Shown here piece after piece: positions 15,823-32,495 of a stretch of DNA of 39,011 bases. Each line of letters begins with the position of its first letter. The stretch's first letter is position 1. The translations under genes and the position numbers were made by a program. The notes beneath the pieces are model-generated. The model did not search any database. It saw only the letters and a list, made by a program, of their open reading frames with translations, and had not been told where the DNA came from. Source of the DNA: Candidatus Thermokryptus mobilis (GTDB taxonomy: Bacteria; Bacteroidota; Ignavibacteria; Kryptoniales; Kryptoniaceae); the NCBI RefSeq assembly GCF_900070205.1, contig NZ_FAOO01000017.1, positions 1 to 39,011 on the forward strand. The letters run 5' to 3'.

Positions 15823-15824
15823 TT

Positions 15825-17858
15825 TTAACCCTTGATATATTTTTTTATCTTACCGAAAATTAAATCCCTATACTCTGACTCAATAACGGAGAGAAAGGCA
15901 TAAATCACCATACCAAGACACCAAGAGTGTGAAAGTGTTAAAATTGTTCCAGACGGTCGCAGCCAATCAACATAATAAAATTGTTCAGGCATCATACCGC
16001 GAAGAGCGTTGAAGTCACCGTCAAATCTCGCTATAAATTGAAGCGAAAAACAAATATTATCAATCGTTCTATCAAGATAATAATCATCACCTGTGAATTT
16101 ATAAAGTTTAAGCATCTCAGGAACACAAATCAATCCGTAATTATGAAGATGCTGATTAACAGGGGATGCGATATCGCCACCAACCGTTTTGAAACCATAG
16201 AGATTTAAAATTGTATTTTCAGGAAATTTCAAATTATGAGCAAATCTGAAGGTCATCATTAAATCAGCGCTTTTCTCTGCAAGTTTAAGCCATTTCTTCT
16301 CACCTGTTATCTCATAAAGAAGCACATAAGAAATAACCGCATTATATGTATCTTCAGATGTAGGAACCATAAAGGCATCTTCCGGCGCTCCATAAATTAG
16401 CTCATCAAGTACAAATTTACTATAAAATTCCCCACCTTTGATTGCTGATGTTTTAAATTTCTCATCCCCATAAATTTTATACCATTCACAAAGAGCTGAT
16501 ATCCACATCAAGCCAGCGCACCCCTCCCAAATCTCAACTTCCCCAGTCTTTGAGTTATAATATGATCCGAAATTCCCATCCTCCCTTTGAATTTCAACAG
16601 CATAATTTAGATTTCTTAAAATGCATCCTTTCCAATCCATGTGTTCATACCCGTTTTTCAACTCAAAATCATAAGCTCTGATCAGAAATAAAATCGCTTC
16701 GCTTAAAGTCCGCGCTTGTGTTAGCCCTGGTTTTGGATTCCAACCATCCGTCCATCCATTTTCAAGCGTCCATTGTGACCATAAAATTCCAGAAGGAGTG
16801 CTTCCCTCACTTACAACTTTATCAATCACAGACCTTCCAGCCTCCAGATAATTCGAATTCCGCTTTATGTAGCCATATTTCATTAAAGCAAAAGCATAAG
16901 GAATACCGCTAACCCAAGATATATGCATATGAGGTCTAATGTCCGCATTGTTAACATTTGAACTCAAAACATTATCAAATCCTCGCGTTTCATATATCAC
17001 TCTATGTTCAGGTATATAATGCCAGCGATAAAGACCAAAAGCAGAAATATCAGCACCGTCATCAAGCAAAAACCAAGGGGATGGTTTGTTATTTTCCCTT
17101 AACTCATAATAAAACTTCCTTATAATCCGATCATAAGCGTGGAGATCCGACTCGGAAAAGAACAATCTGAAAGAAAAATTGATCTCCTCTTCAGGATAAA
17201 TTTCAAGAAAATTCTTGATCGCCCGATTATTAAGATACGGGATGTAAGAAGCGGGCTCCTCAGAAAAGGGGAAAATTAACCCTATCTTTACATCATTTAA
17301 ATCCCCAGAGAAAAATATACCCGATTCACCATGGGAGAAATCAACATCAGTCAAAATAGCGAACATAAAGTTTTCTAACCAACAAAAAACCGCCGGAATA
17401 GAAGCCCTCCGAGATGAGAAGGACCAATAATTTGAAACTAAATTGTCGGCATCAACCTCTACAGGATTATATTTGGGATATCTTCTGATTGACTTACCAA
17501 ATGAATTATCCGCATAAAAAATCCCTGGCACAAGCCATCTTGGTTTTCCGACATCAAGAAAATTAAAAATTATCCTAAATCTGCCCTTTGATATGTCTTT
17601 ACCCCTGAACAAAACTTCATAATTAAACTTAAGACCATCGGATTCCTCAAATACCTTAACAATACAACTAAAATCAGCAACACTACCAAAAATCTTCACC
17701 CATCCTTTACTTGAAACGAAATCTTTTATATTTATTTTTTCAATACAATTTTCACCTTCAAATTCACCAAGTCCATCAATTGAAATTATAATCTTACCCA
17801 TTTTTTCAAACTGTAAAACTCCAGGGGAGTTTCTATCGGCTGTTCTAATTATCATCAT
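15825..17858 (-). CDS. Large cytosolic six-hairpin protein of unknown activity
   Basis: The first 240 residues are beta-rich (sandwich-like); the remainder (about 255-660) is an (alpha/alpha) barrel with regularly spaced aromatic helices, for example GYEHMDWKGCILRNLNYA, EIWEGCAGLMWISALCEW and ASPVNQHLHNYGLICVPEM. HLHNYG and QREDGNFGSYY look like cleft segments. No signal peptide. The build resembles D-glucuronyl C5-epimerase-like and six-hairpin glycosidases, but I do not recognise the family and leave the reaction open. Its ATG overlaps the GH38 stop by 4 bases; an ATG one codon later is an equally good start. The tight coupling to the alpha-mannosidase suggests they share a substrate. Confidence 0.6.
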   Translation of the reverse strand: MMIIRTADRNSPGVLQFEKMGKIIISIDGLGEFEGENCIEKINIKDFVSSKGWVKIFGSVADFSCIVKVFEESDGLKFNYEVLFRGKDISKGRFRIIFNFLDVGKPRWLVPGIFYADNSFGKSIRRYPKYNPVEVDADNLVSNYWSFSSRRASIPAVFCWLENFMFAILTDVDFSHGESGIFFSGDLNDVKIGLIFPFSEEPASYIPYLNNRAIKNFLEIYPEEEINFSFRLFFSESDLHAYDRIIRKFYYELRENNKPSPWFLLDDGADISAFGLYRWHYIPEHRVIYETRGFDNVLSSNVNNADIRPHMHISWVSGIPYAFALMKYGYIKRNSNYLEAGRSVIDKVVSEGSTPSGILWSQWTLENGWTDGWNPKPGLTQARTLSEAILFLIRAYDFELKNGYEHMDWKGCILRNLNYAVEIQREDGNFGSYYNSKTGEVEIWEGCAGLMWISALCEWYKIYGDEKFKTSAIKGGEFYSKFVLDELIYGAPEDAFMVPTSEDTYNAVISYVLLYEITGEKKWLKLAEKSADLMMTFRFAHNLKFPENTILNLYGFKTVGGDIASPVNQHLHNYGLICVPEMLKLYKFTGDDYYLDRTIDNICFSLQFIARFDGDFNALRGMMPEQFYYVDWLRPSGTILTLSHSWCLGMVIYAFLSVIESEYRDLIFGKIKKYIKG

Positions 17859-20542
17859 AACTCAACTTTAATAGTTATAATTTTAAAAGGTTCAACATCA
17901 ACTTTGAAGAATTTATCTTCATCTGGTTCAAGCAAAGCAATCTTTTCCTCGTTTAGCTTTACAATAGAAACACTCGCATAGTCAAAATTTGGTTTAAATC
18001 TGAACCAAGAATCTTTCCAAAACGGGTTATAAAATCTAAAGATAACTCCTTTTTTATCCTCAGATACCTTTAAAGCGCTATAGTTAATCCCGTTCCCTTC
18101 AAAGTTAATAAGTGAAACATCAGAAATTTCTTTCATTTCCTGCTTTCTCTTCACATAGAAATTTGGGCTATGATATAGCTCGGCTTGTTTGCAGACATCT
18201 TCAAATTCATTAGCTTTATAAACAAATATGCTATATTCAAATTCGTAGATGCCTATACATTGTGCATCTGGTGTTTCATTTTTCCAACCGGCATCTCCAC
18301 CAGGTCTTGTTTTTAAATTTGATTCGGAAAGCTGTCCCACTCCTCTCAAAAGTGTTATCGCAAGTCGTCCGGGTTCATCAATAGATAGCTCATACTCATA
18401 TAATCCCTTCGTAAAAATTGCGATACCTTTAATTTCATCTTGAACGCAAACAAATCTTTGCAAAACTTCAAGATTTAATGGCTTCTCATACGGATAATCC
18501 TCCCAGTTGTATTTTTTGTGAATTCTTTTAACGATGCAAAATTGCGAATCCGCGTAACTTGTATTTGTATTAAGCCCCGTGTCAAATATAACCCTCAAAC
18601 GATGATTTTTCGCCTTGTTATTAACTTTCGTCTTCACATCCACCCTTTTTGAGTTATAGTTCAAGTAAATCACCGATGATATCTCCATATCAATTTTTTC
18701 CTTGCTCCTTCCACTTTGCGTCGTATAAGATGGAACTGGGATGTTATAACGAATCTGAACAGCGCATCTCAAAGGTCCTTTCTCAATTATCTCAATACTT
18801 GGTGTGAAATCAGTTGAATAGTATAGTTCATCTTCATCCGGGAAGCAATAGTTATACTCATCCCCAACATCCCCTGATTCTTCAAATATGTTTAAATTAT
18901 CAAACTCAATCCGCTTCTCTTTATCAATTACTTTTATTGAGCCGTTTTTATTGACCTTGATTTTTAAAAAATCATTTTCCATGTAAAAAATTCCAAATTC
19001 ATCAACACCATACTTAACCTTTTCCTCATAAACGACGATTGAACTATCACGAACTATATCAAGCCGTTTCCAACCGAACGAAGGTAAATTTTTAAGATCA
19101 ACCAAAATTTTGAATCTATCAACAAGTATTTGATGTGGATATTCATGATATCCCCAAACGAGAGAATATTTTGTATCTCGGCTTAGGACCTGATATTCAA
19201 CTTCCCCACCATCTGAATCAAAAATCCTAAAACCATCAACACGGCTCAAACTTTGAGATGGTTTGACATCTGGATTTAAACCAACGACGACATCTTGAAG
19301 ATGGAATTCAACTTCACACTCAACAACCTTATCCAATTCAAATGGGGAAAGATTGAAGATGAAAATATGTTTATCGTCCTTGAAAAACTTGCTGTCAAAA
19401 GGTATTATATCGTTTGTAGCTTGAAATGAAAAAGCGTTTGTTATCTCGTCAATTTTAAGATATCTGACAAGGGCTTCATGATAAACCCTATCAACAGCAG
19501 TTCCGTTGATGGTGTCGTGGTCCTGATTTTGTAAACAATAAAGCCAAGCCAGTTTAATTAATTCGCTTCTGTCTTTCTTGGCGAGGATAAATGAAAAAGA
19601 ATTTAACGGCTCAAGAATTCTTTCAAGTTTAATTTGGGCTAAATAATTTCGCTGTTTGATATAAACTCTTGTAGAGGCAGTTCCACCGATGACTGCAAAC
19701 GCATGTCTTAAGCCAAATCTTGTCTCACCGAAATGCTTTGGTAATTTTTCAAGGTCAACCTCAGATCTGACACAATCAGCAAAGTTTTCAAGTGTTGAGT
19801 GAAGGAATTCAAAATCAGAATATTTAGTTTTCAATAATTTCAATGCTTTGGTAAGTTTAATATCAGGCCAGTGATGATCGCCACCATTTAAAATAAGACG
19901 ATGACTCGCCCTCGCCCTTGCATCTATTTCAGACCTTAAACGCTCAAACCTTTTAAAGATCGTATCTTCATCATCCATTGCAAAATATCCAAAACTATAG
20001 CCGTCTTTTGGAAGATGGAACATCAAAACTTTACTTCCATCTGGTGACTCCCATACATACTCAGAGGATTCCTGCCCAGGCTCACCGCCAAAGCCACGAT
20101 ATATCACAGCTGTTTCAATATCAAAACCCCTAAGAATTTGCGGCATTTGTGCTATGTGTCCAAACTGGTCAGGTATATAACCAATCGGCATCGCCCTTCC
20201 AAACTTTTGAGCCATCTCAACCCCGATCAAAAGATTCCTTATATGTGATTCACCACTTGGTATAAACTGATCAATTTGAATATACCATGGTCCAATTGAT
20301 AATCTCCCGCTTTGGACGAGTTCTTTTATCCTTTCAAAATTTTGTGGCTTAACTTCAAGATAATCCATAACCATTTGCATTTGCCCATCCGTCATGAAGT
20401 GTTTAAAGTCAGGGTCGTTCTCAAAAATGTTAAATAAATCATTCCAAAAATCAACTAACATAACTCTATATTCTTCAAACGATAAAACCCATTCTCTATC
20501 CCAATGGGTTTGAGAGACAAAGTGATAAGTTATTTTATTCAC
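17855..20542 (-). CDS. GH38 alpha-mannosidase (MngB-like)
   Basis: Retaining, zinc-dependent exo-alpha-mannosidase. THWDREW at 12-18 supplies the zinc His and Asp. WYIQIDQFIPSGES (86-99) carries the nucleophile Asp91. GYIPDQFGHIAQMPQIL is the conserved strand after it, and LQNQDHDTINGT holds the later zinc His. The C-terminal half is the usual beta-sandwich region. At 895 residues without a signal peptide it matches bacterial cytosolic enzymes such as the mannosylglycerate hydrolase MngB rather than the exported N-glycan enzymes. It begins at a GTG, 18 bases after the MetE-like gene. Substrates could be alpha-mannosides from a heteropolysaccharide or the thermophile solute mannosylglycerate; the context of lyase-like and other GH genes favours the first. 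Confidence 0.93.
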   Translation of the reverse strand: MNKITYHFVSQTHWDREWVLSFEEYRVMLVDFWNDLFNIFENDPDFKHFMTDGQMQMVMDYLEVKPQNFERIKELVQSGRLSIGPWYIQIDQFIPSGESHIRNLLIGVEMAQKFGRAMPIGYIPDQFGHIAQMPQILRGFDIETAVIYRGFGGEPGQESSEYVWESPDGSKVLMFHLPKDGYSFGYFAMDDEDTIFKRFERLRSEIDARARASHRLILNGGDHHWPDIKLTKALKLLKTKYSDFEFLHSTLENFADCVRSEVDLEKLPKHFGETRFGLRHAFAVIGGTASTRVYIKQRNYLAQIKLERILEPLNSFSFILAKKDRSELIKLAWLYCLQNQDHDTINGTAVDRVYHEALVRYLKIDEITNAFSFQATNDIIPFDSKFFKDDKHIFIFNLSPFELDKVVECEVEFHLQDVVVGLNPDVKPSQSLSRVDGFRIFDSDGGEVEYQVLSRDTKYSLVWGYHEYPHQILVDRFKILVDLKNLPSFGWKRLDIVRDSSIVVYEEKVKYGVDEFGIFYMENDFLKIKVNKNGSIKVIDKEKRIEFDNLNIFEESGDVGDEYNYCFPDEDELYYSTDFTPSIEIIEKGPLRCAVQIRYNIPVPSYTTQSGRSKEKIDMEISSVIYLNYNSKRVDVKTKVNNKAKNHRLRVIFDTGLNTNTSYADSQFCIVKRIHKKYNWEDYPYEKPLNLEVLQRFVCVQDEIKGIAIFTKGLYEYELSIDEPGRLAITLLRGVGQLSESNLKTRPGGDAGWKNETPDAQCIGIYEFEYSIFVYKANEFEDVCKQAELYHSPNFYVKRKQEMKEISDVSLINFEGNGINYSALKVSEDKKGVIFRFYNPFWKDSWFRFKPNFDYASVSIVKLNEEKIALLEPDEDKFFKVDVEPFKIITIKVEL

Positions 20543-20560
20543 ACTCAGGAACTTTTAATT

Positions 20561-21577
20561 TTAAAGATCACTACGGACTATTTCAGCCCCTCGAACCATA
20601 GCGCAAAGCTTTCCAAATGCTCTATCTCTTGGCATAAATTTCATACCACAGTCAGGCGAAAGCCAAACTTTTTCGGGTGGGATCACATCAAAAACTCTTT
20701 TAATCCTATTAGCAACAACCTCTGGTGTTTCAACCTTCGGATCCTTAACATCAATTACACCTACAACTATTTCCTTATCGCGCGTCCCATATTTTTTGAA
20801 AAGCTCAAGCGGTTCAGCATCATTGACCGCAAACTCCAAACTCAGCTGATGCGCATTCACATCAAGTAGGGCCGGAAAGAGGTCAGCGTATTGTCCTTTA
20901 AAAAGTCGCTTCAATTGATAATTACCATAACAAATGTGAAGACAAAATTTTGCATCAATACCATCAATCATCCAGTTGAAAATCTCAACCAACCAAGGCA
21001 AATCTTCGGGATAACCAACCCAAACCGGCTCATCAATTTGCACAAGTTTACAACCAGCTTGAACAACTTCAATTATTTCTTCCCTTAAAATTTCAGCGAG
21101 GTCACGGATCAATTCCCTTTCATCACTATAATACTCATTTGTAGCCCTTTTTGCCAACATTTGAGGTCCAGTAATTGTAACCTTTGTATCTTTACTCGTA
21201 TGCTCCTTGAGAAATTTCCAATGCCTTGCAATCCCAATACTTCCAGTTCTTCGCACCTTATCAAAAATTATCGGATCAGGCATCTGGATGGATGGATCAA
21301 GATTTCCGATCGGTTTCATTTTGCCATCATTCTTAAATCCATAAATTCTCTTAGTGAAGAAATAAACCATTGTTTCTCTCCTAAGCTCACCATCTGTTAT
21401 GACATCAATACCTGCCAGCTCTTGATCTTTGATACACGATTTTACCGCATTATCATATGCTTCCTCAAGTTCTTCATCGGTTATTTTACCCTGTTTATGT
21501 AATTCTCTTATAACTTCAAGCCATTTTGGCAGAGAATAACTTCCAACAACAGTCGTGGTTAAAAGTTTTGTCTTCAC
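20561..21577 (-). CDS. MetE C-terminal-domain-like (cobalamin-independent methionine synthase II) protein
   Basis: A single MetE/UROD-type TIM barrel, 338 residues, without the N-terminal half of true MetE. TTTVVGSYSLP opens the family fold, TDGELRRE and QIDEPVW are the family signatures, and HICYG (His214, Cys216), Glu248 and DCGMKF (Cys310) give a plausible zinc thiolate site for methyl or alkyl transfer. I start it at GTG 21577: a longer reading would begin at a GTG inside the terminator hairpin of the upstream gene, which makes no sense. It is the first gene of the 12-gene operon. Short MetE-like proteins include archaeal methionine synthases and coenzyme M transferases, so the methyl donor and acceptor are open. 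Its place ahead of glycosidases is odd. Confidence 0.85.
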   Translation of the reverse strand: MKTKLLTTTVVGSYSLPKWLEVIRELHKQGKITDEELEEAYDNAVKSCIKDQELAGIDVITDGELRRETMVYFFTKRIYGFKNDGKMKPIGNLDPSIQMPDPIIFDKVRRTGSIGIARHWKFLKEHTSKDTKVTITGPQMLAKRATNEYYSDERELIRDLAEILREEIIEVVQAGCKLVQIDEPVWVGYPEDLPWLVEIFNWMIDGIDAKFCLHICYGNYQLKRLFKGQYADLFPALLDVNAHQLSLEFAVNDAEPLELFKKYGTRDKEIVVGVIDVKDPKVETPEVVANRIKRVFDVIPPEKVWLSPDCGMKFMPRDRAFGKLCAMVRGAEIVRSDL

Positions 21578-21615
21578 TTTGTGTTTTATATTTATTTTGG
21601 AGTTAAAATAGATGG

Positions 21616-21640
21616 AAAAAAAACCGCCCACAATGGGCGG
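21616..21640 (-). terminator. Rho-independent terminator after the PorV-like gene
   Basis: On the minus strand a perfect 7-base GC-rich stem (CCGCCCA, loop TTG, TGGGCGG), extendable to 9 pairs with flanking A-T, is followed by eight T. It lies 11 bases after the PorV-like stop and 39 bases before the MetE-like GTG. It should end the outer-membrane cassette transcript and separate it from the 12-gene operon. Confidence 0.92.
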
Positions 21641-21650
21641 TTCGCAAAAA

Positions 21651-22652
21651 TCACTTCAATCCAACACCAACAGTGATCCTATGGACGCTGTCAAGGATTT
21701 TCATCTGCGTAAATGCGTAATCAAAACTAACTTTATAATTCCCAAATTCAATTTTTGCCCCAACACCAGCAGAAAATCCCTCAATGGTTGTCTCTATCGG
21801 ATCACGCCATGATGTCCCTTTATCCTTTGTACCTGAATAATTAAACTTGTATCCAAATCTCGCCGAAATCATACTCCAAGCGTCAAACTCAACACCTGTG
21901 AAGAAAAGTTGTGGTAGGTCTTGAGGTTGAACGACATCTATAAATAATCTACCCGTTAAGCTTCTTTGATAAGTATAATAGAGAGATGTTCCTATTGAGA
22001 AAGAAAGAGGAATTGGTGAGGAAATATCGTAATATCTTATATCTGAGCCGAGGTTTGAAAGCCGTGCCCCAAGACTCCAAAAACTTGTAACTTTATAATT
22101 TGCCCCAAGATCAATCGCAAACGCACTCGCACTTAAATCATCAATACGCTCGTTTAAATATTTCAAATTAACACCAAGTGAAAGTAAATCGGTGACATTT
22201 CTCGCATATGAGAGTATAAAAGCAAAATCACGAAAACTATAAGTAGAGGATGTTTGCTTATCAATTTGTAGATAAGCAAGATCGGGTGGGAGAAGGTCTC
22301 TATCTGCACTTATACCACTTAAACCAAAACTTATTATCCCAACTCCGATCGTTCCAATCCCCTTTAAATTATAAACCGCCCCTATGGCTACCTGATTTAT
22401 ATCTGCGATCCACCTATTATAAGTAAAGGATACCGCTAACTTCTCATCCGATAAAACGATTCCAGCTGGATTCCAAAACATCATATTCGGATCGCCTTTC
22501 AAAGTTGTCGCAGCTGAGCCTATACCAACTTGTCTTGCGCCAACGCCTACTTTAAGAAAGGCAAGTGAATTAATACCGGATTTTCTCACTTGAGATTGAA
22601 GGGTTGAAAAAGCAACTAGAATAACCAAAATAATTATTGTTACCTTCTTCAT
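21651..22652 (-). CDS. PorV/PorQ-family outer-membrane barrel protein
   Basis: Signal peptide MKKVTIIILVILVAFSTLQS, then KSGINSLAFLKVGVGARQVG, the typical opening of PorV/UPF0164-type proteins, and GDPNMMFWNPAGI, the family's NPAG motif. The rest alternates as amphipathic strands (VSFTYNRW, GIGTIGVGIISFG and so on) ending in ITVGVGLK, as in FadL-like barrels. PorV is the outer-membrane shuttle that hands type IX cargo to the surface attachment machinery. This copy follows a gene for a protein with a T9SS-type C-terminal domain, so it may be a dedicated shuttle or partner for it, or a fragment-specific channel. It has a GGGG ribosome site near the ATG and is followed by a strong terminator. 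Confidence 0.85.
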   Translation of the reverse strand: MKKVTIIILVILVAFSTLQSQVRKSGINSLAFLKVGVGARQVGIGSAATTLKGDPNMMFWNPAGIVLSDEKLAVSFTYNRWIADINQVAIGAVYNLKGIGTIGVGIISFGLSGISADRDLLPPDLAYLQIDKQTSSTYSFRDFAFILSYARNVTDLLSLGVNLKYLNERIDDLSASAFAIDLGANYKVTSFWSLGARLSNLGSDIRYYDISSPIPLSFSIGTSLYYTYQRSLTGRLFIDVVQPQDLPQLFFTGVEFDAWSMISARFGYKFNYSGTKDKGTSWRDPIETTIEGFSAGVGAKIEFGNYKVSFDYAFTQMKILDSVHRITVGVGLK

Positions 22653-22675
22653 TTTTAAACCCCATAGTTAATTTT

Positions 22676-25147
22676 TTATCTTAAAATTGCAAAATAACCA
22701 ACCTGTTTACCGCCCTCATATTCAACGACATAAATGTAAAGCCCATTTGCGACCTCAATGCCATCTTTTGAGAACATATCCCAAATATAAGTCCCATCAT
22801 TCGGATTTGGAGCTGTGAAGTTGATTCTATCAATTATCTGACCTGACACATCAAGTATCGTTATGGTGCATTTAGAAGGCAAATTATAGAATAAAAGCTT
22901 ATGCTGAGTTCCAATATCATGAAATGCACCCTTTTTATACGGATTTGGTCTAACGCCAACCTTTTTAGCTCCGGATGAGAGTTCTTCTGGCGTTGTTGTT
23001 CTTGATTTGACAACAACTGTTGCACCAATTTTCTTCTGACCCTCAGCTGTAGTTGGATAAAACGAATTTTGTGTTGCCCAAGGATATGTCCCCTCCCATA
23101 AACCACTTGCTCCGTTGACATTTACCCTACCAGATTCAAGAACATTTGTGCTTCTTCCATTTATGGTTATAGGTGATGGAAGATTTCTATAAGCGGATAC
23201 ATAATACCAATATGAAAATCCAAGCAAAACATCAAGCGCATCATCCTTGAAAGCATAGTCATACCCACCCGACGGACTTGCGTATTGAGAAAGCTGCGAT
23301 TTTGGTATTATTTTCCTGACCTTATACGGACCCCAATGTCCCGCCTGCATCTCCTTTAAAATCCCAAATGCGTCAAACTTTGGATTTATAGGATCTTTAA
23401 AAGCATCCTTTATATCCCCCTCTTCCATTTGCTCTGTATATCTTTGCAAAGTTCTAAAACCAACCTCGGTTGAGCTAAATTTTGGGAATGCACTTGCGCG
23501 ATAAATTTTATAACCACCAAAATTTGGATCATCTTCATCAGGTGACTTCTTCCACCTAATTAAAATCTTATTGTCCTCGGTTATATCAACCCTTATATCT
23601 GGCGCCCCTGGACCAGCTGGAACTTGAAAGTTATTCTCATACGCCCATCTAACTGCTTGTAATGACCTTAACAACCCAGGAAGACGAAAGCCAGCATATT
23701 CAGCAGATATAATCGTAATCGCTTCCCCGACCTCAAGTGAAAATGGTCCACAACCGATAAAAGCATCGCCATCAAAATTATGTTGAGCCGAATATCCTTC
23801 AGTCCATCCATCTTCCCAAACATTCTCAAAAGAATTAGTGGATTTCTTATCCCCATCAGGTTTCCCTCTCTGACCCACTGGCTTTGGAACAAATGAAAGT
23901 GGATCACCAGCTGTTCCAGATTGAAAATAATTTGGGTTTGGACTCAGATCAAGAAGCGCCTTGTTGTTACTCTTACCCCCATCTTTATACCATGTCCCCA
24001 TCAAAATTGTATGTATCAAAGACGCATCACCACGGGCATCTAAACCACCTCTACCAGTCCCAGCGGAAAGATACCATCCACGTTCTGCACCAACTCCAAT
24101 CGGATGACTATCAAAAATTGTCTTTTTGTCCGGAGATGAAGCCAACCCAATTGAATCATTTTTAACAGCTAAAAATGTCCTACCAAACCATACATCCGTA
24201 TACCAACCCAATGGATACGCATTTAACCCCATATCCCTTTTGCCTTGGGGAACAGTATTAGGATCGGGATAAGAAGCGTAATTTGCAGGGTTAACCCCAG
24301 CATAACTTACAAGTGTTGCCCACGGGGAACCCGTTTCATCAGCATCAGCTACATATCCACTATTTCTCCCAGAACCAAACCTATTTGCTGTCCTTCTTCC
24401 AGTTACACCAACCTCAGCGCTGTGCATCACCTCCGAAAACCACCCAACAACAAGAGCATTTATTCTATTGTTTGTCCTCTCCGGAGTTCCATCAGCATTT
24501 ACATCAAGAATTCCATAGTTTTTAAAAGTCATGCCAACCACTATAAAATCGTTAAAATTATTCCAATTTTGGGTAAACTGTAAAATCCTAACAGTGACCC
24601 ATATACCAAGATTGGTTGGAAAACCTGACTCGTAGTAAAGCGCGTGTCTATAATCTCCATTTGGGTCTGGTGTAAGGTCCGGCTTCAACCATATAGGACC
24701 GATAAAATACGGTGACCTTCCAAATAACGCATCAAGTTTATTCGTATAAATCATAAAAGCATAATTTTCGCTTGAGCTTCTAATCTTATTTGGATTTATC
24801 CCCGGGCTATATTCAACTGCTATTATATCTTGAGCCCAGAAGTAACTTATCGGATAACCACCTGGCCATTGAGAGGTAGGAGTTGACCACTGGCGATCAA
24901 AATTTCCAATTCTGATAAGGTCCCAAAGCTGCGTTGGTTCGTTTGCTCTTTCACTGTAATAAACACCTTGACCTATCGGTAAAAATGAATCCCAAAGGTC
25001 CCCTGCAATCATAACAGCCGAGCCGGGGAAAATGTCATTGGGCACAGCTGGTGAAGCACCTTTGTAAAGTTCTAAACCATCAATTTTAACCTGTGAAAAT
25101 GAAATTATCGGGAATAGAATGAACAACAAAATTAAAAACCTTTTCAT
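22676..25147 (-). CDS. Large secreted protein with fibronectin-III-like and T9SS/FlgD-like C-terminal domains
   Basis: Signal peptide (MKRFLILLFILFPIISFS), a long N-terminal region of about 480 residues rich in Trp, Tyr, Gly and Pro, and a fibronectin-III-like segment near 515-555 (ILIRWKKSPDE, GGYKIYRAS). The last 90 residues (PNPYKKGAF, LPSKCTITILDVSG, GTYIWDM, VANGLYIYVVE) match the type A sorting/FlgD-like Ig fold of FCB-group secreted proteins. DVNADGTPE in the N-terminal part resembles a calcium loop. No catalytic motif recognised, so it may be a surface glycan-binding protein filling the role SusD has elsewhere. The ATG has a strong ribosome site (GGGAGG, 5 bases away). It lies between the receptor and PorV-like genes. 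Confidence 0.75.
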   Translation of the reverse strand: MKRFLILLFILFPIISFSQVKIDGLELYKGASPAVPNDIFPGSAVMIAGDLWDSFLPIGQGVYYSERANEPTQLWDLIRIGNFDRQWSTPTSQWPGGYPISYFWAQDIIAVEYSPGINPNKIRSSSENYAFMIYTNKLDALFGRSPYFIGPIWLKPDLTPDPNGDYRHALYYESGFPTNLGIWVTVRILQFTQNWNNFNDFIVVGMTFKNYGILDVNADGTPERTNNRINALVVGWFSEVMHSAEVGVTGRRTANRFGSGRNSGYVADADETGSPWATLVSYAGVNPANYASYPDPNTVPQGKRDMGLNAYPLGWYTDVWFGRTFLAVKNDSIGLASSPDKKTIFDSHPIGVGAERGWYLSAGTGRGGLDARGDASLIHTILMGTWYKDGGKSNNKALLDLSPNPNYFQSGTAGDPLSFVPKPVGQRGKPDGDKKSTNSFENVWEDGWTEGYSAQHNFDGDAFIGCGPFSLEVGEAITIISAEYAGFRLPGLLRSLQAVRWAYENNFQVPAGPGAPDIRVDITEDNKILIRWKKSPDEDDPNFGGYKIYRASAFPKFSSTEVGFRTLQRYTEQMEEGDIKDAFKDPINPKFDAFGILKEMQAGHWGPYKVRKIIPKSQLSQYASPSGGYDYAFKDDALDVLLGFSYWYYVSAYRNLPSPITINGRSTNVLESGRVNVNGASGLWEGTYPWATQNSFYPTTAEGQKKIGATVVVKSRTTTPEELSSGAKKVGVRPNPYKKGAFHDIGTQHKLLFYNLPSKCTITILDVSGQIIDRINFTAPNPNDGTYIWDMFSKDGIEVANGLYIYVVEYEGGKQVGYFAILR

Positions 25148-25175
25148 TTTCGCCTCCCTTTTTAATTTTTAGGAA

Positions 25176-28139
25176 TTAGAAGTTTATGCTAACCCCAAAG
25201 TAAATTTCTCTGGCGATGTCAAAAGCACTTGACCCATCTCTAAACACAGTAAGTCCAAGCGGTCCAGTCGGAATTTTCTTTTGCTCCCAGAGAAGTTGAC
25301 CTTCATCTGTTGTTCTATCATATCCGATTATATTTTCCCTATCAAACAAATTTCTAACCTCAAGATACGGAGATACCCTAATTCTGCCAAGTGTATATCC
25401 TGCCTCAATTTTTAAATCTGTTCTTATATTCCACGGACCTTCACCTAATTTTCTTGATCTCGGATCAGCAAGTAAAAGTGGATATAAGAAACCACTTGCT
25501 GCGGTGGTAAATGTTGAAACTTTGAAATCAACAGGAACACCTTTAAACGGGGCTGGGAAATCAAAGAAAAGATTAAGGTTAATCCTGTGAGGTCTGTCAT
25601 AACCAGTGAAACTTGAAGATAAATTTGAAACAACATTCATTTCATAGCCTGCAAAATATCTTGCATTTTCAAAGGGTAGTTTCCCCCCATACTTGGCACT
25701 GTCGCCACCAAGGGTTGAAAAAGCAGTTACATTTTGACCACGAAGTGCATCAGGTGAGATAACGAGATTCTTTATATAACTATACGCATATGTCAATCTA
25801 CCTGAAAGTTTAAACAAATTACCAACCGGTAAAGACCTGCTGTTTAATGTGAGCTCAATTCCCCTTGAATCAGCATATCCACCATTGAACCTGATAAAGT
25901 AAGTTATAGCAACCCCAGGTCTTGGAGTAACGCCATAGGCAAGAGGAACATAATTTTCAATGGTCTTATAATAAGCGCTCAAGTCAATCCCAAAATAATT
26001 TGAAATAGCATACTGAATTCCCATCTCATAAATTGTTGATCTAAGCGGTTCCTGATCAACAAGAAATATGTTTGGCAATGTCCCATGCATTTCTGCATAG
26101 GAATCGCCAAAAATCGCAGCGTATGGAGGAACCTGCATTGACCTTGAGAATGAATAATACATAGAAGCTCTATCCGATATTGGATGAGATATACCTACCC
26201 TTGGACCTATCAGCCATTTAGTTTTAATCTTGGTATTTCTCCTAATCAAATATCTATTAACATTTAAAACCTCATTTGTTCCCCCGAGTTGTATTTGTTC
26301 AGTTTTAACAGTGTAAGGGGCAAAGTAATTATCTATTTCATACCCCCCTGGGTTAAATGCATCCGCTCTTAAACCTAAGCTTACAATTATTCCAGAATAT
26401 TCAATTTTATCTTGGGCATAAAAGCCAAGCTCGTATGGCTTAACAACATAGTCCTCAACATCAAATCTCCCAACAATTGTATATCTTCTAATCTGTGTAT
26501 ATTTATAAAATTTTAGATCAAAGCCAGCGCTTAAAAGGTGATGGTTTGTAACTTGACTTTTTATGTCACCTTTGATGTTAAATTGACTTAACCTTTGATA
26601 CTCATAATAAGCGCCTGGTCTCGCAAGCGGATATGGACCAGATGATGGGAAAGACGCCTCAGATTCAGATTCATTTCTTGGGGTTGTTGTGAAAAATTTC
26701 GTTTTATCGGTTTTACTGATATACTTTCTTATTTCGTCAGCCGTTGAAAACTTTATAAAGTCACCATCATCCTCATTTAGCTCTATTTTCCCGTCCCCGT
26801 TGCTATCAACAAAACCAACCTCGGTCGGGCTGGTCAAAAAAGAAATCTGGATCTCATAGAAAGTTTTAGATGATAGGGCGTGTGTTACCCTGCCACTTAA
26901 AGCAAAAGTCCCTTTTGTATACTTGGGAACACCCTCAAGGAAAAATTTATAATTCTCGTTAAAGATACGGTTTTTCCAGCCGAAGTAGAAACCCTGATCG
27001 TTTACAAGCCCAATTCCTGTGAGCTTAATTGACGGCGTCAAATTATAAGTCAACTTTCCAACTATGTTCAACTGTCTATTAAACTCGTTCGGGAAACGTC
27101 CATAGGTTTCATAGAATTTTAAATCCGTAAAGAACCCAAGATTTCTAAGTATTCCACCCCCAAGAGAAATTTCAAATTCCGTAGTTGGCTTGTTGCCATA
27201 CCAGTATTTTCCCGGAGTCCAAGTGTAAAGCGCAGCCTTTGCCAAACTTGCCGGGTCACCCTTCGCTATAAGAGCATCCCTTTCACCGAAGTATTTACCA
27301 GCAGCGGTTGAACCATCAGGCAATAAACCAAAATAAAGGTCAGGACCTTTATGTGGAAGTTTTGAAGCGTATCTTACATACGCTTTACCTGAAATTCTAC
27401 CTCTCCCCTCCTTTAAAGTTATACTAACAACACCCCCAGTTGCTTGAGATAATTCTGCGCTTGAAGCACCTGTGTTAATCCCTATCTCTTCTATTGCCCC
27501 AATTCCAACATCGGCAACATTTGAATTTTCTCTGAAAGTCAAACTTAACCCATGATAAGTTGTAGAGAAACCACCCCCATAATTTCCGGTAAAAGCCTCA
27601 TAATACTTATCGCTCACATCAATTCCTTCAATGATATATTTAGTTTCATATCGTCTCGCACCCCTTATGTAACCTGAAAAGTTACCTGGTGATATCCTTA
27701 ACGCTTCCTGAAAATTTGCAACCGGCAAGGCTGAGATGTCATCAGAAGTTATCATCGCCCTTGAGCTCGTCTGAGAGACATCAATCAACGGTCTTTCAGC
27801 TTGAACTACAACCTCGGGCAAACCTATCACTTCTTCTTTCATAGCTACATCAATAAAAGTTGTTTTATCAGCGTTAACAATGACATCCCTCACCCGTGTT
27901 TTAACGAAACCAACAGCTGACACAATGAGATTATACTTACCCGGAGGGATGTTTATTATAGTGTAATTCCCATTGACATCAGCTGCTGCTCCAAGATATG
28001 TCCCCTCAATAATAACATTAGCACCCGGGATTGGCTCACGGGTCGTCTCGTTGTAAACCTTACCTGATATCTTTCCCGTTTGAGACATCAAAATGGAGGG
28101 TAGAATTAGAAGGAATGAAATAAAAATTTTGCGCATCAT
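25176..28139 (-). CDS. TonB-dependent receptor with N-terminal CarboxypepD_reg-like domain (SusC-like)
   Basis: Outer-membrane active transporter, 987 residues. Signal peptide, then a carboxypeptidase-regulatory-like beta domain (GKISGKVYNETTREPIPGAN to FIDVAMKEE), a possible TonB-box/plug start (LPEVVVQAERPL), a plug domain with ALRISPGN and ATGGVVSITLKEG, and a 22-strand-type barrel ending in FGVSINF with the terminal Phe expected of barrel proteins. I start it at ATG 28139 because GGAGGA lies 5 bases upstream; a longer reading would pass through that site. An EF-hand-like DSNGDGKIELNE loop lies in the barrel (26772-26807). It heads the cassette and no SusD gene follows. Likely imports oligosaccharide, though siderophore or peptide uptake cannot be excluded. 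Confidence 0.92.
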   Translation of the reverse strand: MMRKIFISFLLILPSILMSQTGKISGKVYNETTREPIPGANVIIEGTYLGAAADVNGNYTIINIPPGKYNLIVSAVGFVKTRVRDVIVNADKTTFIDVAMKEEVIGLPEVVVQAERPLIDVSQTSSRAMITSDDISALPVANFQEALRISPGNFSGYIRGARRYETKYIIEGIDVSDKYYEAFTGNYGGGFSTTYHGLSLTFRENSNVADVGIGAIEEIGINTGASSAELSQATGGVVSITLKEGRGRISGKAYVRYASKLPHKGPDLYFGLLPDGSTAAGKYFGERDALIAKGDPASLAKAALYTWTPGKYWYGNKPTTEFEISLGGGILRNLGFFTDLKFYETYGRFPNEFNRQLNIVGKLTYNLTPSIKLTGIGLVNDQGFYFGWKNRIFNENYKFFLEGVPKYTKGTFALSGRVTHALSSKTFYEIQISFLTSPTEVGFVDSNGDGKIELNEDDGDFIKFSTADEIRKYISKTDKTKFFTTTPRNESESEASFPSSGPYPLARPGAYYEYQRLSQFNIKGDIKSQVTNHHLLSAGFDLKFYKYTQIRRYTIVGRFDVEDYVVKPYELGFYAQDKIEYSGIIVSLGLRADAFNPGGYEIDNYFAPYTVKTEQIQLGGTNEVLNVNRYLIRRNTKIKTKWLIGPRVGISHPISDRASMYYSFSRSMQVPPYAAIFGDSYAEMHGTLPNIFLVDQEPLRSTIYEMGIQYAISNYFGIDLSAYYKTIENYVPLAYGVTPRPGVAITYFIRFNGGYADSRGIELTLNSRSLPVGNLFKLSGRLTYAYSYIKNLVISPDALRGQNVTAFSTLGGDSAKYGGKLPFENARYFAGYEMNVVSNLSSSFTGYDRPHRINLNLFFDFPAPFKGVPVDFKVSTFTTAASGFLYPLLLADPRSRKLGEGPWNIRTDLKIEAGYTLGRIRVSPYLEVRNLFDRENIIGYDRTTDEGQLLWEQKKIPTGPLGLTVFRDGSSAFDIAREIYFGVSINF

Positions 28140-28144
28140 AACAT

Positions 28145-28150
28145 TCCTCC
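28145..28150 (-). promoter_or_regulatory. Strong ribosome binding site deciding the receptor start
   Basis: GGAGGA on the minus strand, 5 bases before the ATG at 28139. It rules out the longer upstream start, which would translate through the site. Confidence 0.85.
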
Positions 28151-28186
28151 AAATGTGTTTTATAAGATAAAACAAAATTCGTGTAT

Positions 28187-28215
28187 AAAATAAAAATTTT
28201 ATCTCGCTTTGTCAA
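28187..28215 (-). promoter_or_regulatory. Sigma70-like promoter of the receptor cassette
   Basis: On the minus strand a perfect -35 TTGACA (28210-28215), a 17-base spacer and a -10 TATTTT (28187-28192). Predicted start of transcription is near 28180, giving a leader of about 40 bases to the receptor ATG. Confidence 0.7.
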
Positions 28216-28285: not shown

Positions 28286-28609
28286 TTAATCACTGAATTC
28301 AAATCCATTCATGCCATACTTTTGCGTCACTGGAGATTGACAACTATTCATATCCGGTATCCAAATTATAGCATCAACTGGACAAGATTCAAAACACAAT
28401 CCGCAACCAGTACAGTTATCCTTGTTTATAACAGCAACCCTATCCCTCATCTTGATAGCGTCAAAGAAACATATATTCGGACATCTTCCACATCCTATGC
28501 ATTTATCTTCAACTACTTCTGCAACAGGTGGATACCTGTCATAAAATTTGGGTGGAAACGGATTTAAACCGATATACTTACCCATTTCTAAATGAATTAA
28601 ATTTACCAT
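28286..28609 (-). CDS. 2[4Fe-4S] ferredoxin-type electron carrier
   Basis: Two complete cluster motifs: CIGCGRCPNIC and CTGCGLCFESCP, in a bacterial-ferredoxin fold with about 35 leading residues. It probably carries electrons to or from the neighbouring PreA/DHOD-like flavoprotein, as the iron-sulfur part of dihydropyrimidine dehydrogenase does in fused or two-gene enzymes. The start overlaps the flavoprotein's stop by 7 bases; a second ATG 8 codons later (at 28585) is also possible. It is the last gene of the operon. A Cys-containing tail (MNSCQSPVTQ) follows the second cluster. Confidence 0.93.
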   Translation of the reverse strand: MVNLIHLEMGKYIGLNPFPPKFYDRYPPVAEVVEDKCIGCGRCPNICFFDAIKMRDRVAVINKDNCTGCGLCFESCPVDAIIWIPDMNSCQSPVTQKYGMNGFEFSD

Positions 28610-29618
28610 TCGTCAAAGACATTTCTCGGACCGCTCTTTTTCTCACCCGACCATCTTATTATCAGCTCCGGATCAACCAAATTCCTTGCAGCAATTCCTC
28701 TTATACTTTCAAGTTTCTCAATTCCCTTTTCAGATAAAAAGTTTAGTATCCCCTCGTTTATATGCTTTATTGTCTCCCAACCGTTGACGATTATAACCGA
28801 TAGGATTTGAACTGTTGTAGCGCCAAGCATAATATATTTGACCGCGTCACCCCAGTCTATGACTCCTCCCGTTGCACTTATCGTTATATCAACCTCATTA
28901 TAAACTTCACAAACATGTTTAAAGACATAGTACTTCGCCCACGGACCGCCAACCCCAGCATAATAGCCGTGCAAAATTGGCTTCCCAGATTCAACATCAA
29001 TATCAAGCCCCCTGAGACGATTACAAAGTGTTACAGCACTCGCACCAAGTTCCTTGCAAACTTTTGCCTGATAAAGAACATCAGGTCCTGGTCCTAACTT
29101 AACAAGAACAGGGATTTTAACATTACCCACAACTGATTTAACCGCCTCAACAAAATGTTTCTCAAACTGCAAAGTCCCCGGCTTATGTGGTGATGATATA
29201 TCAAGCTCAATCGCATCAGCACCCGCCTCTTCTATTCCCTTGGCAAGATAAACCCAATCATCTACTTCATCTGCAAAAGCACTCCCAATTATCATTATGT
29301 TTGAAGTCTTTTTGGAAATCTCAACGAAATCAAAATAATCCTTAACCGTTCCACTATAAGCTTGTTCGTATGAGTATAGCGTAAAATACCTAGACTTTCC
29401 GCCCATCTTCTTGTCCCAATCAATGAGTTTATACCTGGGTCTTGGCCAATATCTCATATAATTAAACTTATCAGGAACAACCGTCTTGAGCACAACACCC
29501 CCAGCCCCATCTGTTCAGCTATCGGGATTTGCTTAACATCATGACTTGCTGGTCCTGAAGCGACAAATATCGGACTTTTTAAACGATAACCGAGAAACTC
29601 AACTTCAAGTGTAGGCAT
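28603..29618 (-). pseudogene. PreA/dihydroorotate-dehydrogenase-like flavoprotein, split by a one-base deletion
   Basis: FMN TIM-barrel enzyme of the DHOD/dihydropyrimidine dehydrogenase type. The true N-terminus starts at ATG 29618 and reads MPTLEVEFLGYRLKSP, then ASGPASHDVKQIPIAEQMG, the family's opening. At 29505-29508 a run of four G (minus strand) should be five: adding one G restores MGAGGVVLKTVVPDKFN and runs into the open frame to 28603. Later parts are intact: IELDISSPHKPGTL, PVLVKLGPG, ISATGGVIDWGDA and GATTVQILSV. Ser stands where many relatives have Cys in the N-x-S-C-P-like segment. The rebuilt gene lies 6 bases after the enolase-superfamily gene and overlaps the ferredoxin gene, so it is clearly an operon member. 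It could be a real mutation, a programmed slip or a sequencing error in the G run. Confidence 0.88.
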
Positions 29619-29624
29619 AAAAAC

Positions 29625-30767
29625 CTAAAAATTTATTTCCAAGCGCTTGACCATATATCTGCTGACCTTTTCAAAATTTAAACCAAAGCTTAAATCCTCT
29701 GTAAAGTTTACATACCCATCCTTGACATCTATCAATGGCTCAATTACATCATCAACATACCATCTACTTGATGACTCAACATCAGTTGGAAACTTGCAGT
29801 TATCAAGAACACACAAGTTAAGAGCATGTGCAGAGCCGATCCCAATCTCAGGCATCGTTCCAATCCAAACAGGTATGCCGTTATTTCTACATATGTCGTG
29901 GAATTTCTTGGAAATAAATATCCCACCAACTCTCTGAATCTTGATATTAACTATTCTACACGCCCCAAGCTTAATAGCAAATTCTAACCTTTCAATAGAA
30001 TCAACACTTTCATCAAGACAGATAGGTGTTGAAATTTTATCCTGTAAAGCAGCATGTCCCTCAAGATCGTCTTTACTTAAAGGTTGTTCAATCATCACAA
30101 GTCCAAAATCATCAAGCTTCCTCAAGTGTTCAATATCATCCCTTAAATATGCACAGTTGGCATCCACCATCAAGGGAACATCACTAAAATTTTTCAGCAT
30201 ATACTTGATCGGAACTATATCCCACCCTTTCTGAATCTTTATCTTGACCCTTTTATAATTTCCACTGTCAAGATGTTTACCAACGATTTTTATCAGATCT
30301 TCAACACTATCACATATTCCAACGGCAAGACCAGATTCTATTTTCCTCATTTCACCACCGATAATTTTAAAAATCGGCTCACCTTTAATCCTTGAAATGC
30401 CATCCCATAACGCCGTCTCTATCCCAGCCCTTGCATAAGAACTTAAACCAAGATTTATCATCTCCCTACTTAAATTTTCAACCCCATCAAAAAAATTATC
30501 AAAATTAAAATCCTTGATAATCCCTGAATATCTAACTAATTCTTCCCAAACACTATCCGGGGTCTCACTTGAATAAAAAGACCCAGCCATAGGTGACGCC
30601 TCACCAAAAGCATATAAAATTTCATCTCCAAACTTTATTTTCAACTCAACTATTATCGCATCTTTAACGAAAACCTCACCACTGCTAATTTTGAATCGCT
30701 CCGTCATTGGAACTTTAATATGGAACAAGTTGAGCCCGATAATCTTTTTCTCCCTACTTTCCGACAT
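29625..30767 (-). CDS. Enolase-superfamily enzyme, OSBS / N-succinylamino acid racemase-like
   Basis: Cytosolic metal-dependent enzyme that takes a proton next to a carboxylate. All expected residues are visible: catalytic pair Lys175-x-Lys177 (VKIKI), metal ligands Asp202 (VDANCAY), Glu227 (MIEQPL) and Asp252 (CLDES), and Lys276 (KIQRVGG) on the opposite side. The KxK/K arrangement is that of the muconate-lactonizing subgroup (o-succinylbenzoate synthase, N-acylamino acid racemase, dipeptide epimerase). I start it at ATG 30767, overlapping the IclR stop by 14 bases; a longer reading adds ten residues of no family value. No menaquinone genes lie nearby, so OSBS is less likely than a racemase or a cycloisomerase on a sugar or amino acid derivative. 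Confidence 0.88.
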   Translation of the reverse strand: MSESREKKIIGLNLFHIKVPMTERFKISSGEVFVKDAIIVELKIKFGDEILYAFGEASPMAGSFYSSETPDSVWEELVRYSGIIKDFNFDNFFDGVENLSREMINLGLSSYARAGIETALWDGISRIKGEPIFKIIGGEMRKIESGLAVGICDSVEDLIKIVGKHLDSGNYKRVKIKIQKGWDIVPIKYMLKNFSDVPLMVDANCAYLRDDIEHLRKLDDFGLVMIEQPLSKDDLEGHAALQDKISTPICLDESVDSIERLEFAIKLGACRIVNIKIQRVGGIFISKKFHDICRNNGIPVWIGTMPEIGIGSAHALNLCVLDNCKFPTDVESSSRWYVDDVIEPLIDVKDGYVNFTEDLSFGLNFEKVSRYMVKRLEINF

Positions 30768-31548
30768 ACCCAAGCCGTCTTGAAATTTTATCGGCATAAA
30801 CCTTCAAATCTTCAGCAAGCTCATAAGCCTTTGCAACCGTCTTGCTTCCTTGATACTGCAAAGTAATAAGCAAAGCTGCTATAATTTTACCCCAAGTATT
30901 TCTTATAGGTGCAGCAACAGCAACAAGTTCTGGATTATACTCCCTATCAACAACGGAAAATCCTTGCTCCCTTACCTTTTTCAACCTCTGTTTTAGCTCA
31001 GAAAATCTCGTTATCGTTTTTTCTGTATATTTTTTTAACCCAACCTTTTTAACAAGCTCCCTAAGTTCATCATCAGAAAACTCAGAGATCAAAACCTGAC
31101 CACTCGCTGTGCAATGAACAGGTGATCGTAATCCAAGTTTTGTTACAAGCGACCACATACTTGGAGAATCAACCCTTTGAATTAAAACGACGCGATAATT
31201 GTTCAACACAGCAAGATATACACTTTCACCTGTCTTCTTTGCAAGCTCCTCCATATATTTGTAGGAATCATAACCGAGGTTCATTTTGTTTAACTTTGAT
31301 ATTCCAAGTTGTGAAAGCCGAATTCCAAGTGAAAATGTGTTATCACCTATATTCCTTTCAACAAAGCCATATTTTTCAAGTGTGACAAGTATTCTAAAAA
31401 TTGAGCTCTTCGGATAATCTACATGGCGTGCTATCTCGCTTAGTCCCATCGGAGCATCAGCTTTCTCAAGAAGGTTAAGTATCTCAATCGCCCTTTTAAC
31501 TGCCGGAACTATGTATTTTTCTGGCTCAGAAAATTCATCCAATTTCAT
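30754..31548 (-). CDS. IclR-family transcriptional regulator
   Basis: N-terminal winged helix-turn-helix (AIEILNLLEKADAPMGLSEI and HVDYPKSSIFRILVTLEKYG), followed by an effector domain with SPVHCTASGQVLI and the tail motif GFSVVDREYNPELVAVAAPI, all typical of IclR proteins such as KdgR. About 264 residues is normal. It binds DNA as a dimer or tetramer and senses a small acid, in KdgR the product of uronate breakdown. It lies inside the operon, 14 bases after the DapA-family gene, so it probably regulates this operon and itself. ATG 31548 is preferred over the GTG at 31554. Its operator cannot be read from one site. Confidence 0.93.
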   Translation of the reverse strand: MKLDEFSEPEKYIVPAVKRAIEILNLLEKADAPMGLSEIARHVDYPKSSIFRILVTLEKYGFVERNIGDNTFSLGIRLSQLGISKLNKMNLGYDSYKYMEELAKKTGESVYLAVLNNYRVVLIQRVDSPSMWSLVTKLGLRSPVHCTASGQVLISEFSDDELRELVKKVGLKKYTEKTITRFSELKQRLKKVREQGFSVVDREYNPELVAVAAPIRNTWGKIIAALLITLQYQGSKTVAKAYELAEDLKVYADKISRRLGYVGK

Positions 31549-31562
31549 ACGCACTCAAAAAG

Positions 31563-32495
31563 TTAATTTTTTAATTTATATCCCAAGTTTTTCAAAGCCA
31601 TTGCTATCCTCCTCTTATCAGCTGCTGAAATCGGAAGAAGCGGTGGGCGAACATAACTTGTCTTCAAAACACCTATCAAACGTAGTGCTTCCTTAACCCT
31701 AGCCCTATAATCCCTAACAGGTGTGGCAAAGATGACCTCTTCAAGTGGTTTAATTTTTGAGTAAATATCAAATGCTCTTTCGTAGTTTCTATCTTTAACG
31801 CATTTAAACATCTCAATTTGCTCAGCTATAGCTATAGTTCCAAAACCAATCAAAGCCCCATCAGCACCAAGTATAAAAGATTCAAGGATAAAATCATCAT
31901 TACCTGTCAAAATTGAAATTTTTCTGCCCGAATTTCTCAACGTGGTCATAGTTTGAACAAACTTTAAAGCATCAGCTGAGGCCTCCTTTATTGCAATGAC
32001 ATTTTTAATTGAAGCAAGTTTAACCAACGTTCTCTCATCATAGAGGACACCCGAAAGAGATGGTTGAAGCTGAAATAAAACAAGGGGTAAATCAACCGCA
32101 TCGCTTATCGCTTTATGATATTGATAAGGGATTTCTAAAGGCAGCGGATTTCCAGCGTAAGCTGGAATGGGAAAAACGACAATCGCATCAGCTCCAACCT
32201 TAGATATCAATTTCGCCTCCTCAACTGCCTCCTTTGTATATCTGGTCGTTAAACCACACAAGACCGGGAACTTGCCATCAATAATTTCAACCCAAGATTC
32301 AAGGATTTTGATCTTTTCCTCTCTGCTCAAATGCACTCCTTCACCTGTATCCATATTCACAGCAACACCACCAAGTCCATCAAAACTTTTAACCCAATTC
32401 GCATATCTTCTCAGTTGGGCAAAATCAACAGAGAAATCACTCTTCATAGGAGTTACCACCGCTGGAATTATTCCCTCAAGTTTCAACTTGCTCAT
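31563..32495 (-). CDS. DapA/NAL-family lyase or dehydratase (KDG-aldolase type)
   Basis: TIM-barrel class I aldolase that forms a Schiff base through Lys170 in VIAIKEAS. The usual GTTGE loop reads NMDTGEG (47-53). The family Tyr of the strand 5 Y-N-x-P motif is Phe141 (VLFQLQPS), so proton shuttling must differ from true dihydrodipicolinate synthase. 310 residues is normal. CAGGGAT close to the ATG is the ribosome site. With an IclR regulator next door and lyase-like genes around, a 2-keto-3-deoxy sugar-acid aldolase or dehydratase is the best guess. It is not expected to be lysine biosynthesis: no dapB or lysine genes are near. Confidence 0.88.
   Translation of the reverse strand: MSKLKLEGIIPAVVTPMKSDFSVDFAQLRRYANWVKSFDGLGGVAVNMDTGEGVHLSREEKIKILESWVEIIDGKFPVLCGLTTRYTKEAVEEAKLISKVGADAIVVFPIPAYAGNPLPLEIPYQYHKAISDAVDLPLVLFQLQPSLSGVLYDERTLVKLASIKNVIAIKEASADALKFVQTMTTLRNSGRKISILTGNDDFILESFILGADGALIGFGTIAIAEQIEMFKCVKDRNYERAFDIYSKIKPLEEVIFATPVRDYRARVKEALRLIGVLKTSYVRPPLLPISAADKRRIAMALKNLGYKLKN

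Follow-up and report, generated by a model that had tools for sequence, protein, structure and literature searches.

In the SusC-SusD and RagA-RagB systems, which import glycans and peptides, a TonB-dependent receptor (TBDR) with a CarboxypepD_reg-like N-terminal domain has a partner at the cell surface, glycan catabolism genes adjoin the pair, and many paralogues occur per genome. Other systems consist of barrels that hold proteins at the cell surface: PorQ holds PorZ and PorV holds PorU (PMC5562754), SprF holds SprB, and PorP/SprF barrels hold type B cargo (PMC9143113, PMC12618676). PorZ keeps its Ig-like C-terminal domain uncleaved and binds carbohydrate (PMC8545088), and BamG, a relative of FadL, binds the surface protein BamH (PMC12578637). 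We analysed a 39,011-nucleotide stretch of the Candidatus Thermokryptus mobilis genome (contig NZ_FAOO01000017.1; "the window"), which contains on its minus strand a cassette of three open reading frames (ORFs), separated by gaps of 23-28 nt, for a TBDR, a secreted protein of 823 amino acids (MID) and an outer-membrane barrel of the PorV/PorQ family (PORV). We think it probable that this cassette is a copy of a widespread TonB-dependent uptake module, in which a surface binding protein delivered by the type IX secretion system (T9SS) is held by a PorV-family barrel and not by a lipid.

The cassette resembles SusC-SusD and RagA-RagB in its receptor, proposed surface partner, glycan neighbours and number of paralogues, but it has no SusD, adds a gene for a PorV-family barrel, and encodes in MID a signal-peptide/T9SS protein, not a lipoprotein, that is unrelated to SusD by sequence. 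With PorQ-PorZ and PorV-PorU it shares a PorV/PorQ-family barrel and, in the proposed reading, a surface-held protein, but those pairs function in the processing of other cargo by the sortase, and no receptor gene belongs to their unit. SprF/PorP and their type B cargo are similar in that the barrel gene lies directly 3' of the cargo gene and many pairs occur per genome; they differ because the barrel of our triplet belongs to the PorV/PorQ family, its cargo has no type B C-terminal domain, and the SprF/PorP pairs lack a receptor. We found no description of the triplet in the open-access literature (subscription papers and preprints lay outside the search).

A preliminary description made from the sequence alone had proposed a receptor, a T9SS-type protein of 823 residues and a PorV-like barrel, and both the ORFs and the family matches agree with it. 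The TBDR gene (25176..28175, minus strand; the likelier start is the ATG at 28139, preceded by GGAGGA) encodes a CarboxypepD_reg-like N-terminal domain, a plug and a barrel. In searches of Pfam and NCBIfam its product scored 75.9 bits with CarbopepD_reg_2 and 23.6 bits with Plug, just below the cut-off of 23.9, and the profile of its family matches solved TonB-dependent receptors in PDB across the plug and barrel parts, so we classify it as a TonB-dependent receptor. Its match to the SusC/RagA model TIGR04056 is confined to the N-terminal part (residues 35-282) and falls below the cut-off (84 bits against 368), and the same model matches 9 of 9 TBDRs from triplets (best E-value 1.4e-34).

MID (22676..25147, minus strand) comprises a signal peptide ending in ...SFSQ, an unnamed body, an fn3-like segment and a C-terminal Ig-like T9SS domain (about residues 715-823; 22676..23005, minus strand), which appears to be a sorting and retention domain of the PorZ/PorU type. 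The C-terminus matches the NCBIfam model of the PorZ C-terminus (E = 3.5e-4) and is otherwise FlgD_ig-like; it scores 17.7 bits with the type A sorting model TIGR04183, below the cut-off of 23. Among 17 MIDs, the PorZ model is matched by 10 (best E = 5.8e-10), TIGR04183 by four at E ≤ 0.01, and the type B domain TIGR04131 by none. In PDB, a profile of MID retrieves PorU and PorZ, and the A1 profile matches the C-terminus of PorU (6za2, E = 7e-4). MID bodies have no match in Pfam or NCBIfam, and a PDB search with the body gave no significant hit (best E = 0.13). At 823 residues, against a median of 1130, the window MID is a short and divergent member of its family, and its orthologues were found only in Kryptonia. 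Its signal region contains no Cys, so it is not a surface lipoprotein of the kind that partners SusC. A lax lipobox pattern is matched by 18 of 85 MIDs, mostly through a Cys within the hydrophobic segment that precedes an ...AQ site, as against 19 of 23 SusD proteins.

PORV (21651..22652, minus strand), the proposed dedicated anchor or shuttle of MID, scores 182 bits with the PorV/PorQ family model NF033709 (cut-off 90), which places it in that family, and stays below the equivalog models of PorV (71 bits, cut-off 250) and PorQ (100 bits, cut-off 220). The profile of its family matches PorV (6h3i) over the full length with E = 4e-43. TIGR03519, the model for PorP/SprF barrels, is matched by only one of 11 barrels (E = 6e-4), so these barrels are not of the type that holds type B cargo. 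The source genome encodes a T9SS with SprA, PorU and PorV; its PorU (6za2, E = 1e-115) adjoins, on contig C3, the best PorV-family match of the genome, which is likely to be the true PorV.

The arrangement recurs within this genome, its class and its phylum. Six TBDR-MID-PORV triplets are present in the source genome, on contigs C17 (the window), C19, C16, C12, C22 and C6 (where MID is broken by a run of N), and a MID end followed by PORV at the end of contig C13 represents one further, cut triplet. A search of this genome with the window MID gave matches to the C-terminal domain only, with PorV-family genes adjoining. The wider searches used MID profiles built in this analysis, a sample of genomes from the phylum, and loci in which ORFs were called again under the guidance of the profiles. 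MID matches, including some to the C-terminal domain only, occur in all 61 class genomes. At the best 30 MID loci of the class, PORV lies directly downstream in all 30 and a TBDR upstream, within a flank of 1.5 kb, in 28; one of the two loci without a visible TBDR is at a contig edge, and the other has an antisense ORF called over the stretch. A profile of the body only was matched in 140 of 296 sampled genomes of the phylum at E ≤ 1e-10, and in about 109 at E ≤ 1e-50 among the matches listed. The triplet is present in 40 of 40 long loci (12.7-19.9 kb), of which 20 belong to other classes, and in 40 of 40 loci of multi-copy genomes. Of 85 complete triplets, 84 have their genes on one strand in the order TBDR-MID-PORV, and the median gaps are 15 and 10 nt. 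None of the three partners was found in 20 random regions of such genomes. The single exception among the 85 (locus L169, genome G019, contig C27) has the order TBDR-PORV-MID.

The three genes also share a history. We calculated Spearman correlations between the tree distances of the partners over the 85 triplets, using as a control 200 shuffles in which partners were exchanged among paralogues of the same genome (13 genomes hold two or more triplets), so that the species signal was kept. The correlation between TBDR and PORV is 0.86 (shuffles: mean 0.29, maximum 0.53), that between TBDR and the MID body 0.74 (mean 0.19, maximum 0.40), that between the MID body and PORV 0.65 (mean 0.17, maximum 0.49), and that between the MID C-terminal domain and PORV 0.55 (mean 0.09, maximum 0.32). 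Because real partners exceed the shuffles within genomes in every comparison, the triplet is inherited and duplicated as a unit.

The preliminary description had noted the lack of a SusD beside the receptor, and this holds: we found no SusD match among the window proteins, nor in the 40 long triplet loci. MID has no sequence similarity to SusD (hhalign probability 1.4%), so at the level of sequence there is no sign that the 823-residue protein is a SusD in disguise. The sole SusC-SusD pair that we found in the source genome is on contig C22 (223-567, locus L019). Of the 61 class genomes, 18 contain SusD, none with more than a few matches; in a larger draw of 73 class genomes, SusD was present in 16 and MID in 68 (44 at E ≤ 1e-50). 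Outside the class, many genomes have both SusD and the triplet, or SusD only, and we therefore rejected mutual exclusion of the two as a general rule. We also rejected a reading of the "SusCDE" operon from Melioribacter roseus (PMC3534657) as a triplet under a wrong name, because a genome that agrees with it in gene position encodes a genuine SusD at 880 kb and carries a triplet at 1.10 Mb.

The xylan locus of Rhodothermus marinus (Rmar_1067-1081) contains a TBDR (Rmar_1070), two hypothetical proteins (1071, which has a sorting domain, and 1072) and then a further hypothetical protein with such a domain (1073), GH10 (glycoside hydrolase family 10), a sigma factor, FecR, SusC, SusD, GH67 and two GH3 genes, and SusC/SusD was the only uptake pair that its authors recognised (PMC6987092). 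A genome in our sample (G063) has the order TBDR-MID-PORV, a 909-residue protein with a sorting-type tail, GH10, SusC, SusD, GH67 and GH3, the last assigned by size and position. We take it to be a relative and not the R. marinus strain itself, because the genes upstream of the TBDR differ. By this gene order, Rmar_1070-1072, which the paper lists as one TBDR followed by two hypothetical proteins, occupies the place of the triplet. Since the triplet here sits beside a SusCD pair, in the Rhodothermus-type xylan locus it is an addition to SusCD and not a replacement. The earlier suggestion of an alternative uptake architecture is thus borne out in part: the triplet is conserved, is inherited as a unit that lacks SusD, and recurs across the class and phylum beside glycan genes, but "replaces SusD" is too strong.

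Genes for carbohydrate catabolism and uptake adjoin the triplets far more often than they occur in random regions, so the possibility that the triplet lies mostly away from catabolic genes, which would have spoken against a role in uptake, was not borne out. Among 136 same-strand neighbour proteins of 33 triplets we found GH3, GH16, GH130, GH5, GH13, glucoamylase-like and malectin proteins and carbohydrate-binding modules (CBM6/9/20/35), many with type A sorting tails, together with 10 SBP_bac_1 and 13 BPD_transp_1 proteins (sugar ABC importers), 10 SSF symporters and 11 LacI regulators. The 25 commonest families in the random regions (119 proteins) include no glycoside hydrolase, CBM, sugar-binding protein or LacI, and only two MFS_2 proteins. 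In the source genome, a LacI gene and a gene for a secreted protein with CBM20/CBM48 adjoin the cassette on contig C19. Six loci from different genera (L107, L111, L112, L114, L118 and L119) share a recurring block of genes for proteins of about 505, 435, 286, 270 and 300-480 residues downstream of PORV, which fits a sugar ABC importer and is probably one orthologous utilisation locus.

From the partnership with a TBDR, the uptake context and the co-inheritance, we infer a receptor complex in which MID would be the surface binding part; its contacts with the partners, its retention, its ligand and the transport itself are likewise deduced. The signal peptide would take MID across the inner membrane, and the T9SS would carry it on through the outer membrane. 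PORV would then take up the PorZ/PorU-like C-terminal domain and keep MID uncleaved, as PorQ keeps PorZ. Held by PORV in place of the lipid anchor of SusD, MID would sit beside or over the TBDR, bind oligomers freed by surface enzymes and pass them on to it. The TBDR would import them with TonB energy, and linked periplasmic enzymes and ABC, SSF or MFS importers would take over, a step that the gene context supports. The adjoining GH38 gene tentatively suggests that the cargo in the window is probably a mannose-type oligoside. The preliminary description had cast the barrel as a private shuttle of MID; a lasting anchor is more likely than a recycled shuttle, because the C-terminal domain of MID resembles those of PorZ and PorU, which remain bound to PorQ and PorV, and only weakly, below the cut-off, the cleaved type A signal.

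Several observations weigh against this picture. An AlphaFold2 (AF2) model of MID made with four close relatives was useless (pLDDT 28), and that of the C-terminal domain was weak (53.6); a Foldseek search with this low-confidence domain model gave only weak matches, to FlgD, DUF3244, PorZ and PorU. An obvious TonB-box-like string was found in only 52 of the 85 TBDRs in which it was sought. On contig C7 (locus L013, 2100-7599) a TBDR is followed directly by PORV without MID, and MID is therefore not always part of the module. The loci and their neighbours were picked from the best-scoring MIDs, so the context may be biased, and our figures show that good MIDs have partners, not what share of PorV-family genes lacks them. 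Finally, among the six cassettes of the source genome, two adjoin peptidase genes (a zinc carboxypeptidase on C12 and a prolyl oligopeptidase on C22) and two adjoin nothing recognised as metabolic; because of the two peptidase neighbours, peptides may also be substrates. Upstream of the TBDR-PORV pair on C7 is a gene for a lipoprotein-like protein of 555 residues (LTGCKQ), and this locus may represent a variant that has had its middle part replaced.

We consider it unlikely that MID is ordinary T9SS cargo, such as a surface adhesin or a spacer, served by a PorV-like shuttle of its own, and that the receptor works alone and shares only regulation with the pair. Cognate pairs of this sort, a C-terminal-domain protein and its shuttle without a receptor, are known from SprB-SprF (PMC12618676), and MID bodies contain no recognised binding domain. 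Against this, the TBDR gene is directly upstream in 84 of the 85 triplets, and its tree follows those of PORV and MID (0.86 and 0.74) far above the shuffles. This fixed position and tracking argue against a mere regulatory neighbour, which would have been lost or swapped over such distances. Less probable again is that MID is a divergent surface enzyme, a glycosidase or peptidase of a new type, in a cassette that both degrades and imports. A long body (823-1308 residues) in which several Trp, Asp and Gly residues are conserved, and which has no known fold, would suit such an enzyme, but this body matches nothing in Pfam, NCBIfam or PDB, and the adjoining genes already supply dedicated enzymes that carry type A signals. 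We give still slightly less credence to the idea that PORV is a channel of the FadL type, for hydrophobic or small compounds, and that MID and the TBDR form a complex apart from it, so that one substrate would have three transport parts. The PORV profile does match FadL channels of the TodX/TbuX type (E about 1e-5 to 1e-6), but it matches PorV far more strongly and over the full length, the subfamily model is that of PorV/PorQ, and the neighbours are polysaccharide enzymes, not hydrocarbon genes. A chance triplet of unrelated genes is refuted by its recurrence, with constant order and strand in 84 of 85 loci and the partners in none of the 20 random regions.

The signals that bound the cassette are where the preliminary description had put a promoter and a strong terminator. 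A promoter-like site, TTGACA-17-TATTTT (28187..28215, minus strand), is upstream of the TBDR gene, and a terminator-like hairpin, GAACCGCCCATTGTGGGCGGTTTTTTTT (21621..21643, minus strand), with a 10-bp GC-rich stem and a T-run, ends the unit. Isolated matches of either kind are common (28 promoter-like sites were observed and 20.9 expected). Two relatives, Ca. Chrysopegis kryptomonas JGI-23 (L009) and a Kryptonia metagenome-assembled genome (L010), likewise have a TTGACA 5' of the TBDR gene and, 3' of the PORV gene, a strong hairpin whose sequence is unrelated, so the cassette is probably its own transcription unit.

Catabolic genes flank the cassette on both sides, as had been proposed, and their order is kept in the same two relatives. 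Downstream (12320..21631, minus strand) are genes for a MetE-like protein, a GH38 protein similar to mannosylglycerate hydrolase, a GH127-like protein, a Trehalase-like protein (below the cut-off) and a Na+:solute symporter. Upstream (28286..32495, minus strand) are genes for a ferredoxin, a dihydroorotate-dehydrogenase-like protein, an enolase-superfamily protein, an IclR regulator and a DHDPS-family protein, with counterparts of equal sizes and related starts in the relatives. The dihydroorotate-dehydrogenase-like gene (28603-29625) is frameshifted near its start, its first residues, MPTLEVEFLGYRLKSPIFVASGPASHDVKQ, being in a different frame from the rest; in both relatives it is a single frame of 338 residues, and the frameshift in the window is either an assembly error or a real mutation.

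We regard it as about an even chance that a three-protein capture complex of a T9SS-delivered binder, a PorV-family holder and a receptor largely takes, in Ignavibacteria and Kryptonia-type Bacteroidota, the role that SusCD plays in Bacteroidia. The triplet is far commoner than SusD in the class of the source genome, and if the proposed function is correct, polysaccharide utilisation loci have been overlooked, because gene finders based on SusCD miss triplet loci. It would also give a role to many unexplained PorV-family paralogues of these lineages, provide a testable case in Rhodothermus, which is cultured and non-pathogenic, and mean that protein secretion and nutrient uptake are joined in one complex.

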